Both the position numbers and the translations under genes were made by a program. A DNA stretch of 64,000 nucleotides from NCBI RefSeq assembly GCF_000002985.6, contig NC_003283.11, positions 19,965,501-20,029,500 of the forward strand, read 5' to 3'. Positions 200 to 7,059 of this stretch are shown one piece after another. The DNA is from Caenorhabditis elegans (lineage: Eukaryota > Nematoda > Chromadorea > Rhabditida > Rhabditidae). The notes below the pieces were generated by a model, which was not told the origin of the DNA, made no database searches, and saw only the letters and a program-made list of their open reading frames with translations. Positions within the stretch are counted from its first letter, which is position 1. Every line of letters starts with the position of its first letter.

Positions 200-3100
200 A
201 TGTGCCTGGAAAGCTTGAACTTCCTGGCATCCGACAAGTTATATGCAGGAATTCTACATTTCCTTACTTGCATCGAAGTCCCACTTCATGCCTTCGGTGC
301 CTACCTGATAGTAGTGAAGACTCCAAATAAAATGAAAATGGTTAAAGCTAGCATGCTATTGCTCCAACTTGTTGGAGCATCAGTCGATATTTTTATGAGT
401 TTCTTAACCACTCCAGTACTCAATTTACCCGCCTGCTCTGGATATCCACTGGGATTCTCGTTACTTTTAGGGATCCCTACGTCTGTTCTGGTTTATATGG
501 GTATCTCATTTGTCGGAGGTATGTGTTTAGGTACAAGGCTTCCTTAACGTCTGATTACCATTTCAGTAATCGGTGTAACTGTTCTGTTATTTTTTGAAAA
601 TCGCTATCACCAACTCATCAATAGATCTTCTGGAGGCAGGAGTTGGAAGCGAATATTATATGTGTTGTTTCACTACGCGTTATCTGCAACATTTATAGCT
701 CCGTCGTTTTTGAATATTCCAAGTGTAGATCAAGGAAAAGTACATACTTTTGAGGTGAGTTAATATTTTCTACTAGCAAAATCCCACAGGTTATATGGTT
801 AGTGAATCTGATATACATATACATATACATATACATATACATATACATATACATATACATATACATATACATATACATATACATATACATATACATATAC
901 ATATACATATACATATACATATACATATACATATACATATACATATACATATACATATACCGTATATTCTCTATTAGTGCTGCATGCCGCTCTAATTTTC
1001 AGAGCCTTCTCGATTGCAGCTCTATTAGAGACTGCCGTTCTACTGGAGACTGCCGCTCTAATTTTCGAACGAGTTTTTTTTGTTTTCAGGAGTTTCAATT
1101 AATGGTGGAGTAGAAATAACAATTTTTCATAAATGAAAAAAAAAATCAAAGAAAAACAAACAACAGAAAAAAAACAAAAATTATCCTACGGAAATGATAG
1201 AATTGTCAGACTCGTTGCCTTCTTCTTGACTTTCATCGATTCCAATATCCTGCACGAGGTCGACGAGAGAATTTTCTATACGCGTGCTGTTGAGAAGATC
1301 CAGACCCGACGGAATCGATCCGTTTGGTGCAAAACAGTGAATCTGATTATCTTCACTTCCATCTGTAGCGATTGTCAAGGCGCATCCTTTAAAGGATTTC
1401 AATATCAAATCCTTTGGAAGATCATTCCATGCGTTTTCAATCCATTCCAAGTATTGGAGCATTGACGGCGGACGCATGTTGTTGCTTTTTGTGAAGCTTT
1501 TCTGTCCATGCACCATCCAATCCTCATAACTTCGACGAATGCTAGCTTTGAAAGGAGAATTCCAGTAAACGTCGGGAGCCTAAGCGAACAATTTATGTAC
1601 CGTTTCAGATGATGATCATACCTGTACAAACTTTGTGCATCCACCGGGAACAACTGCTGTATCCACTTTCAAATTTTTGAGCACTCGTTTTGTTGCATCA
1701 CTGATATGGCATCTGAATGCGTCCCAAGCCAAAAGTCTTTTTCCAAAAAAAGGAGGCCCGATGATAGTGTTCAAGTAATCTTCTGTCACTTAATCGTTGA
1801 AAAACGTTCGATTACACCAGCTCAGTTGCAGACTGTTCTTGAATCTTGCGGCAATTTCTTTGTCAGGTCTGGTACGAGGAAGGAGCACATATGGACGGCA
1901 CTTATATCCATCGGCTCGAGCAGTTAGAAGCACTGTAACATGCATCTTTTCATGACCTGTCGTCTTAACTGGCACCTGAAAGAGTATTAGACAACGTTTC
2001 ATCATAGGGTGACTGAAATAGAAAAAAAGAGTATTAGTTTTTCCCACCTCTCGAGAACCTTTTTCGTTCAAGGTCAACGAGTTCGAAAAGTCCAAATAAA
2101 CAGCAGTCTCGTCCGCTGCAAAAATGTGAGTATCTGTATACTTGTTCTGGAGTCGCATTTTTTCCACAAAAAGAACGTAATCAACGATTTTCTTGGCAAA
2201 TTCATCAGGCTCTTTTTAACAAGTTGTAGTAGCTCGTCGTGTACTGAGGTGGTGCCTACGCATGAACTTTTGGAGCCAGCCGGTCGACGCCTGAATGAGA
2301 GTTGAATTTCTTTAACAAAGTACGCAGTTTGCTACCTTGAAGTCTTCCTCTCCACAAATTTCTTTAGCTTTTTGTCTGATTAAATTTCTGCTCACACGGA
2401 ATTTTTTCTCTCGTTGATCCCGAAACCAGCGAAGCACACTTTCGTCCACGGTTTCGCGTTGGACTGGTCGGCCACCACCTTCTAAACGTTTTGGAGCTGT
2501 TTTATTTGTAGATTTCCTATAATTCAAATATATAACTAAGCATTCACAAATCAGCATTTTCAAACTTACAACTGAGACTCAATTTTGGTTTTTTGTGCCA
2601 CCCAGTCTTGAATACACTGTCTGCTGACCTTCAGATCTCTTGCTGCTTTGGTTTTGCTGAATTTCGAAGCATATTCAATTGCTTCTAGCTTGAGTTTCAG
2701 ACTGTGAACTTTCCTCGAGCATTTTTGAGCACCAGTTGTCGAATTGCTTGGCATTTTCCTTCAAAATTACATGTAAAGTTTTAATACAAGGATTTCAAAC
2801 AAAAAAACCACGTAAAACAATTGAAAAATGTTGAAAAAAAAGAAAATAAACTGAAAAAAATTCAAAAAATAAGCTGAAAAGCAGCGGCGGGTCTCGCAGC
2901 GAAAAGGGTGCCGCTCTATTAGAGACTGCCGCTCTATTGGAGACTGCCGCTGTAATTTTCGGAAATGCCTGTTGGGTGCAGCTCTATTAGATACGCCGTT
3001 CTATTAGATACGCAGCACTAATAGAGAATATACGGTACATATACATATACAGTGCGCGCGCTTGCTATAGGACCCCCCTAAGTTTTGGCAGTATTGAAAA

Positions 3101-6100: not shown

Positions 6101-7059
6101 ATTTGATATTGAAATCCTTTAAAGGATGCGCCTTGACAATCGCTACAGATGGAAGTGAAGATAATCAGATTCACTGTTTTGCACCAAACGGATCGATTCC
6201 GTCGGGTCTGGATCTTCTCAACAGCACGCGTATAGAAAATTCTCTCGTCGACCTCGTGCAGGATATTGGAATCGATGAAAGTCAAGAAGAAGGCAACGAG
6301 TCTGACAATTCTATCATTTCCGTAGGATAATTTTTGTTTTTTTTCTGTTGTTTGTTTTTCTTTGATTTTTTTTTCATTTATGAAAAATTGTTATTTCTAC
6401 TCCACCATTAATTGAAACTCCTGAAAACAAAAAAAACTCGTTCGAAAATTAGAGCGGCAGTCTCCAGTAGAACGGCAGTCTCTAATAGAGCTGCAATCGA
6501 GAAGGCTCTGAAAATTAGAGCGGCATGCAGCACTAATAGAGAATATACGGTAACTACCTTACTACTCAGATGTATATTTCCAGAAAATCCCTTGCATCCC
6601 CAGAGACATACCCTCCCGTCCTGGCTACTTTGTCCTGGCAACTGACAACCTACTCGTCTGCCTTTGCATTTCTATCATGCTCTTGTTCGTCGGCGTTCAA
6701 TGGGCTTTTTTCGTGGCGTCCATATTCCGCTACCTATCCAACACCGTATCCCATTCCCAAACCACAACTCGTCTCCAACGTCAATTCTTCATTGCAATGT
6801 GCATTCAACTGTTAATCCCGTTGGCAGTAATCGTTTTTCCGGCGGCGTTTGTAGTTTTTGCAATAAGATATGACTATTATAATCAAGGTATGTAGTAAAG
6901 AAATTAAACAGACAAAAGAAATGTAGAATTTCAGCCGCCAACAACATTGCGATGGCTGCTATTGCCACTCATGGAGTTTTTACCACACTGACCATGATAA
7001 TTGTGCATAAACCGTATCGGCAGGCTACATTAAGCGTGTTACGGGGAAAGTCGGAGTAG
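200..7059 (+). CDS. srh-family serpentine chemoreceptor (srh gene 1), 4 exons
   Basis: Exons 200-518, 567-754, 6584-6887 and 6935-7059 join in frame to 311 residues. Seven-transmembrane nematode receptors of the Srh class are thought to detect odours or tastants in sensory cilia. Class marks seen: an early block with PLHAFGAYLIVVKTP, then PACSGYPLGF and NIPSVDQG, TTRLQRQFFIAMC in the second half, YYNQ at the last splice, and MIIVHKPYRQATL near the C-terminus. All four exons match srh gene 2 downstream in length and phase (1, 0, 1). Intron 1 is 48 bp, but intron 2 is 5.8 kb because a (TACATA)n tract and a large palindromic transposon lie in it. The coding frame is intact, so the gene may still work if that intron is removed. 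AATAAA follows the stop at 7066-7071. Confidence 0.88.
809..959. repeat. (TACATA)n simple repeat
   Basis: About 25 near-perfect copies of the 6-mer run up to the left edge of the Tc2-like element in intron 2 of srh gene 1. Short pieces of the same repeat recur at 3036-3049, and in inverted form at 4462-4475, inside the palindrome. Confidence 0.97.
960..3035 (-). mobile_element. Tc2: Tc2-like pogo-family DNA transposon, left copy
   Basis: The unit is 2,076 bp with a perfect 24 bp terminal inverted repeat beginning CCGTATATTCTCTATTAG at both ends. TA follows the inner end (3036-3037). Subterminal degenerate direct repeats of the type CTCTATTAGAGACTGCCG lie just inside both ends. From memory, Tc2 of C. 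elegans is about 2,074 bp with 24 bp terminal repeats, irregular subterminal direct repeats and a 2 bp target duplication, which fits closely. The transposase reading frame runs on the minus strand. Confidence 0.87.
1181..2754 (-). pseudogene. Tc2-like transposase, left copy, interrupted
   Basis: This is the mirror image of the right-hand transposase (4757-6330) with the same exons. It starts with MPSNSTTGAQKC, a helix-turn-helix segment with SKTKAARDLKVSRQCIQDW, then a CENP-B-like HTH part and a DDE core with FAADETAVYLDFS. The same two in-frame TAA codons as in the right copy break the frame, near 2216-2218 and at 1790-1792. The one clear difference found, Ser instead of Ala in the EKG(S/A)REV segment, shows that the arms are not identical. 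Confidence 0.75.
3050..4461. mobile_element. nested palindromic element with CAGTG/CACTG ends
   Basis: The arms are roughly 670 bp, from CAGTGCGCGCGCTTGC at 3050 to its complement ending at 4461, and are flanked by TA on both sides. The unpaired centre is about 3720-3788. CAGTG next to TA is typical of Tc1/mariner termini, so this looks like a fold-back, non-autonomous Tc1-type element. Open frames inside it, such as the pair that mirror each other at 3594-3779 and 3600-3917, are products of the palindrome and are not taken as genes. Confidence 0.8.
4476..6550 (+). mobile_element. Tc2: Tc2-like pogo-family DNA transposon, right copy
   Basis: This 2,075 bp unit is the inverted partner of 960-3035, with the same 24 bp terminal repeats and subterminal repeats (4500-4615 and 6445-6530). 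It is flanked by TA at 4474-4475 and 6551-6552. It carries the transposase frame on the plus strand. Confidence 0.87.
4757..6330 (+). pseudogene. Tc2-like transposase (pogo/CENP-B type), right copy, interrupted
   Basis: Pogo-type transposases bind the terminal repeats and cut and paste the element at TA sites. Exons inferred: 4757-4941 (psq-like HTH), 4995-5175 (second HTH with GGGRPVQRETVDESVLRWF), from 5221 onward (STGWLQKFMRRHHLS), then the catalytic core. The core shows ADETAVYLDFS with the first acidic residue, a VPVKTTGHEKMHVTV segment after a 69 bp intron, LLAWDAFRCHI with the second, and QAPDVYWNSPFKASIRRSYEDW with the third. The acidic tail ends at 6330. Two TAA codons (5293-5295 and 5719-5721) interrupt the frame, and conserved sequence continues beyond each in the same frame. 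Both arms share them, so they predate the palindrome. Unrecognised introns are the alternative explanation. Confidence 0.78.

Follow-up and report, generated by a model that had tools for sequence, protein, structure and literature searches.

How did two inverted transposons come to enclose a third piece of DNA within a single intron of Caenorhabditis elegans: by moving as one unit, or by being copied in place? This question is raised by a near-perfect palindrome of 5.6 kb in a stretch of 64,000 nucleotides (the window; contig C5, NC_003283.11, positions 19965501-20029500). The palindrome occupies window positions 958-6552 including TA dinucleotides, lies in an srh chemoreceptor intron between 754 and 6584, and consists of a Tc2 element, a CATATA residue, a core of 1.4 kb, the inverted residue and a second Tc2 (Table 1). 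Between its arms (958-3716 and 3795-6552), 2755 positions are identical, 3 are mismatched and there is 1 one-base gap; an inverted match of 2.7 kb at more than 99% identity is too long and too exact to require a chance expectation. Two of the three mismatches fall in the alignment at the loop edge (3707 and 3710), and the centre of symmetry falls in the core's own spacer. The initial annotation had described a Tn10-like unit that moved as one, naming local inverted duplication by template switching at the inner palindrome as the alternative. Based on the anatomy of the locus and on searches of the genome (100,286,401 bases, 7 contigs), the palindrome is probably a locally made mirror copy, produced by a double template switch guided by the core, rather than a mobile composite.

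The composite transposon Tn10 consists of two inverted IS10 elements around a core, and the likeness is clear, as here too two near-identical inverted elements with intact outer ends surround other DNA. The 26-base ends (TA plus 24 bp) are identical at all four Tc2 termini, which bears out the description of two complete inverted Tc2-like units with intact 24-bp ends, flanked outside by TA, in an srh intron. The "single TA pair" said to bound the block is correct for the outer TAs but not as a single pair: TA is present at all four Tc2 ends, and an outer pair is no more than a lone Tc2 would show. The interior differs from that of a composite. Between the core and each Tc2 lie 12 bp of CATATA repeat, and 24 perfect units of the same repeat are found outside the left Tc2; when the left Tc2 is taken out together with one TA, an unbroken in-phase CATATA array runs into the core. 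Because the array is in phase on both its sides, the left Tc2 was most likely inserted here singly, by plain insertion. In a composite transposon the inner DNA should be unrelated to the target site, but the CATATACATATA inside this palindrome matches the 24-unit array outside. Removal of 4464-6552 leaves core-TA-ACTACC, that is, a normal TA-flanked core.

A Tc2-core-Tc2 block built elsewhere and moved here by its outer ends would account for these ends being intact and flanked by TA. Its landing site would also, by chance, have had to be the very CATATA repeat already present inside it, and 30-mers of this repeat have 136 overlapping start places on both strands of the 100 Mb, the window's own array included, so that the arrays are estimated to total ~1 kb. 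The initial annotation had suggested a search for other loci with the same order; none was found, Tc2 being absent within the 2.1-3.0 kb flanks of the seven other core loci tested and the core within the 2.3-2.8 kb flanks of the three other Tc2 loci fetched. A helper acting in trans would be needed as well, both transposase copies bearing two stops in the inferred frame. Based on the in-phase array and the lack of a second copy, arrival from elsewhere as a composite was rejected as the leading explanation and is considered quite improbable; the array around the left Tc2 argues against the 5.6 kb having come as a unit, and unit movement is not indicated. With both outer ends intact, mobilisation of the block in trans is possible in principle.

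The element was assigned to Tc2 by its features and not by a match to a named Tc2 record, on its 24-bp ends, flanking TAs, length of ~2.07 kb (2080 bp counting both TAs) and pogo-type transposase. When the right copy was submitted to Pfam as five separate pieces, HTH_Tnp_Tc5 and DDE_1 were above cut-off on two of them, HTH_23 was below it on another and the remaining two had no match. A TC2 is placed among the pogo groups in the available text of PMC7325037, where it is named from human and fish and is uninformative on the worm element. Full-length matches occur at four places, two in the window and the others at C5:19851464 and C2:997146, in addition to one rearranged copy at C5:19834193 and dozens of short matches to Tc2 ends genome-wide, which are undercounted since 40 of 107 and 40 of 96 candidates were scored.

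Between the two window units there are 2078 matching positions, one mismatch (2056 vs 5455) and one poly-A indel. In an alignment of five copies, columns 835, 1388 and 1886 have states private to this pair; the other state is found at all three columns in L059 and L060, and also in the rearranged copy L061 (835 in one of its fragments, 1388 and 1886 in the other). The change at column 835 creates a TAA in the inferred transposase frame (5719-5721), an in-frame stop private to the window pair, while the second TAA (5293-5295) corresponds to columns 1260-1261, where the letters of L059 are identical. Judging from these shared states, the two window copies have a close common origin in a recent shared parent. 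The difference at column 1099, carried by the left copy, postdates the duplication, since the right copy has the state of L059 and L060. The window copies also differ in the length of the poly-A tract (column 179), which gives no direction because the longer form is also present in L061.

These shared variants are compatible with any form of local copying, among them a local hop. In that case Tc2 would have inserted twice in the ordinary way, the second time by a hop of the first copy, at mirror-image TAs flanking the core; this would yield an exact TA at all four Tc2 borders, and the daughter copy would inherit the private variants. A pre-existing inverted array, an equal distance of 14 bp and a mirrored orientation would all be needed by chance, and the private stop at column 835 indicates a common parent that was already mutated, with which a hop driven in trans is still compatible. 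On balance, a local hop seems unlikely.

The separate differences held by the arms (2056/5455, the poly-A tract and the loop edge) also argue against the duplication of one arm in the reference assembly, an artefact that is conceivable in that long palindromes are hard to clone and assemble, but that we regard as very unlikely. For strain N2 the available text of PMC9635669 puts Tc2 at 3 as an average count and at 4 as estimated from read depth (Bergerac strains, 20 and 25-30), against four full copies and one rearranged copy in the assembly, and these figures are too coarse to settle the matter.

In the rearranged Tc2 (L061 2694-4408; C5:19834193-19835907), columns 1-859 stand in inverted orientation, with the junction to approximately column 1220 at the outer-end TA and ~360 bp missing, which looks like a self-insertion of a Tc2 end into its own internal TA.

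The core is a palindromic element of 1416 bp (3048-4463) with 45 matches in the genome at 67-100% identity. Its well-kept copies start with TA-CAGTG, finish with CACTG-TA and have unrelated flanks, these ends being confirmed in the window, L062, L063, L064 and L068; sites resembling the core end (up to 3 mismatches) number 22, vs 0 for a reversed-pattern control. These ends and flanks make the core an independent, TA-flanked foldback element, and its CAGTG ends, TA target and dispersed copies are those of a Tc1-like foldback element, CAGTG being the signature of Tc1. By description it resembles Tc6 and other palindromic relatives of Tc1 in C. elegans, likewise near-perfect palindromes with CAGTG ends and a TA target. 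The "foreign core" of the initial annotation is thus foreign to Tc2 but not unique DNA: a part of Tc2 and unique foreign DNA are both ruled out by the dispersed foldback family, and the interior of the palindrome also holds the CATATA residue of the target array. Some relatives contribute little: L062 and L065 are weak witnesses because their left end is deleted or truncated, the core-end sites L074-L076 match the core over 23-29 bp and are uninformative, and weak matches such as the pair C6:7105470 and C6:7106329 stayed outside the comparison.

On each arm of the core, the end motif (3055-3086) recurs directly 174 bp further in (3229-3260), an arrangement reminiscent of inverted repeat/direct repeat (IR/DR) pairs of transposase sites.

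The two arms of a core copy evolve in concert. In the five copies with alignable arms (window, L062, L063, L064 and L068; L067, L065, L066 and short or partial copies were left out), divergence is 0.0-6.1% between the arms of a copy vs 5.2-31.3% between copies, and the tree pairs the two arms of each copy as sisters in all five cases. The weakest pair is that of L062 (support 0.71), with 4.7% between its own arms vs 5.2% to the window; the window arms are 0.4% apart in this comparison, from the loop-edge sites. The sisterhood of the arms and their low within-copy divergence imply that arm-to-arm copying must recur in the core family, by template switch or by conversion.

The concerted arms would also suit an origin by arm-to-arm gene conversion, in which a natural inverted array, (CATATA)n-core-(TATATG)2, surrounded the core before one Tc2 entered one arm and break repair copied it to the other. 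One natural inverted CATATA/TATATG array is indeed known at another place in the genome, C1:11342642-11342685 (locus C1:11342618-11342757). Conversion, however, requires such an array to have pre-existed here, and the exact 24-bp inverted sequence expected at its empty site has no match in the genome; outside the right Tc2, moreover, there is no homology beyond TA at which the tract could end. We therefore hold conversion to be improbable. A prior state with the core flanked on its right by TATATGTATATG, and without Tc2, would favour both conversion and the local hop.

An independent parallel for template switching is provided by another core copy, L067 (C6:8061682-8062335), in which the inverted repeat extends past the element into both flanks. 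The flank palindrome measures 68 bp per side by BLAST at 97%, or 65 bp when counted up to the first mismatch at its distal end, and the right side reads in the order core end, inverted copy of the left flank, TAGCAAGCGCGCGCACTGTA (a second terminal 20 bp) and then other DNA. The TAGCAAGCGCGCGCACTGTA is identical to the end of the window core and has one mismatch vs L067's own right end, and TAG is common to both pieces at the return. This scar fits a strand that followed the wrong arm into the flank and re-entered ~20 bp inside the element end. Insertion of the core into an older palindromic element was judged unlikely because such nesting would not yield a second terminal copy; beyond query position 62 of the flank, furthermore, only the locus itself and its inverted partner appear among the 40 matches listed, the remaining listed matches stopping by that position and corresponding to a dispersed repeat.

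Returning to the window, the core-guided double template switch may be outlined as follows. The foldback element would have inserted at the last TA of the CATATA array in the srh intron, giving array-TA-core-TA-ACTACC, and one Tc2 would then have inserted at an array TA 14 bp to the left of the core. DNA synthesis in the right arm of the core could next have switched to the complementary left arm and proceeded outward across the 12-bp array residue and the entire Tc2, before returning to the original template at the right border of the core through the GTA common to the Tc2 end (ACGGTA) and the core end (CACTGTA). The outcome would be an inverted residue and a Tc2 copy between the core and the native intron. 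The order of these events, a replication template switch in preference to break repair and the return at GTA are what we infer. This mechanism is favoured as it needs no prior inverted array and accounts for every border, and it is the alternative of the initial annotation that fits best. The marks of a template-switch inverted duplication are found at both loci, namely an inverted flank copy centred on a pre-existing inverted repeat and a return at microhomology near the point of departure: in the window the core-spacer centre and GTA, with a reconstructed pre-duplication allele, and in L067 the 65-68 bp and TAG.

Several points weigh against this mechanism. The return falls exactly on the outer end of Tc2, which is one of 47 GTA, or one of 155 TA, on the copied path, array included, and a transposition model explains this exact return for free. 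The coincidence would disappear with a transposase cut at the Tc2 end on the template, or if a short remnant of the array had been lost afterwards, both being hypothetical. The copy, of ~2.1 kb, is far longer than that of L067 or than the pattern of up to 59 bp given in the available text of PMC8794818, and the allele without the right arm is a reconstructed one. Finally, a flank scar occurs in only one of nine other two-ended core copies (2 of 10 with the window); none was seen in L031, L032, L038, L062, L063, L064, L066 and L068 (0 of 8), whose inverted repeats end no more than 4 bp from the element. Such a low tally argues against a frequent process.

Quasipalindrome and foldback template-switch mutations offer the closest mechanistic comparison. 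As far as the available text of these reports goes, template switching makes and maintains perfect stems (PMC8794818) and short foldback insertions arise at breaks (PMC11724301), and the likeness extends to inverted repeats that guide the copying of the reverse complement, to a return at microhomology and to homogenisation of arms (PMC8794818, PMC11724301, PMC7467729). In the window, by contrast, ~2.1 kb including a whole transposon would have been copied, and the guide is a transposable foldback element. A look-alike of a composite transposon can thus arise in a eukaryote without composite transposition, a foldback element serving as a local copying guide that mirrors its neighbour, transposon included; L067, as a second and smaller scar, makes the mechanism checkable. 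No description of this locus was found in the literature, which was screened by title and the start of the abstract and included few subscription papers.

As a functional analogue, the nearest that we can propose for an inverted transposon pair is Mu killer of maize, an inverted transposon duplication beside a gene whose proposed read-through hairpin RNA silences the family, according to the available text of PMC3440606. Both are inverted duplications of transposon sequence; the worm pair sits inside an srh intron. By analogy, the palindrome might act as a natural Tc2 "killer", in which srh pre-mRNA reads through both arms, the intron forms a Tc2/core hairpin of ~2.7 kb and small RNAs keep Tc2 low in this strain. 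This idea is doubtful; if true, the worm would have its own equivalent of Mu killer, created when a foldback element copied the DNA beside it. The locus is a testable candidate as a source of long hairpin RNA directed at a family of transposons.

Table 1. Features of the palindrome and of the srh gene around it (window positions).
Feature	Position	Strand	Evidence or remark
srh chemoreceptor exon piece	167..520	+	Pfam 7TM_GPCR_Srh, E 9.2e-33
srh exon piece up to the donor of the palindrome-bearing intron	548..754	+	Pfam Srh, E 3.1e-13, profile 94-160; GTGAGT next
CATATA array, 24 perfect units	816..959	+	left Tc2 has its target-site TA at 958-959, the last of the array
Left Tc2, transposase on - strand	960..3035	-	99.8% to L059, 99.5% to L060; 24-bp ends intact
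TA + CATATACATATA, array residue separating left Tc2 from core	3036..3049	+	in phase with outer array once Tc2 and one TA are removed
Foldback core, TA at each end (TA-CAGTG...CACTG-TA)	3048..4463	.	arms 667/669 matching; family copies L062-L068
Spacer of 78 nt, symmetry centre	3717..3794	.	identical spacing in another core copy, C3:1407776-1407853
Putative inverted copy, TATGTATATGTA + Tc2 + TA, between the core's right TA and native intron	4464..6552	-	by inference
Right Tc2, transposase on + strand	4476..6550	+	stops in inferred transposase frame at 5293-5295 and 5719-5721, mirrored in left copy
TA + native intron 3' end (ACTACCTTACTACTCAG...TTTCCAG)	6551..6583	+	aligns with paralogue L073 from window 6562 on
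srh exon piece 3' of the intron	6584..6886	+	Pfam Srh, E 2.1e-27, profile 162-264

At the equivalent place in L073, an srh paralogue ~5 kb upstream of the window, the intron is short and has neither array nor transposon; intron 1 of this paralogue carries a short element with Tc2-like ends (TACCGTATTTCC...GGAAATACGGTA). Within the window, a degenerate AT-rich repeat with a spacing that is often 19 or 22 bp occupies 8203-8743, in an intron of the next srh-like gene.

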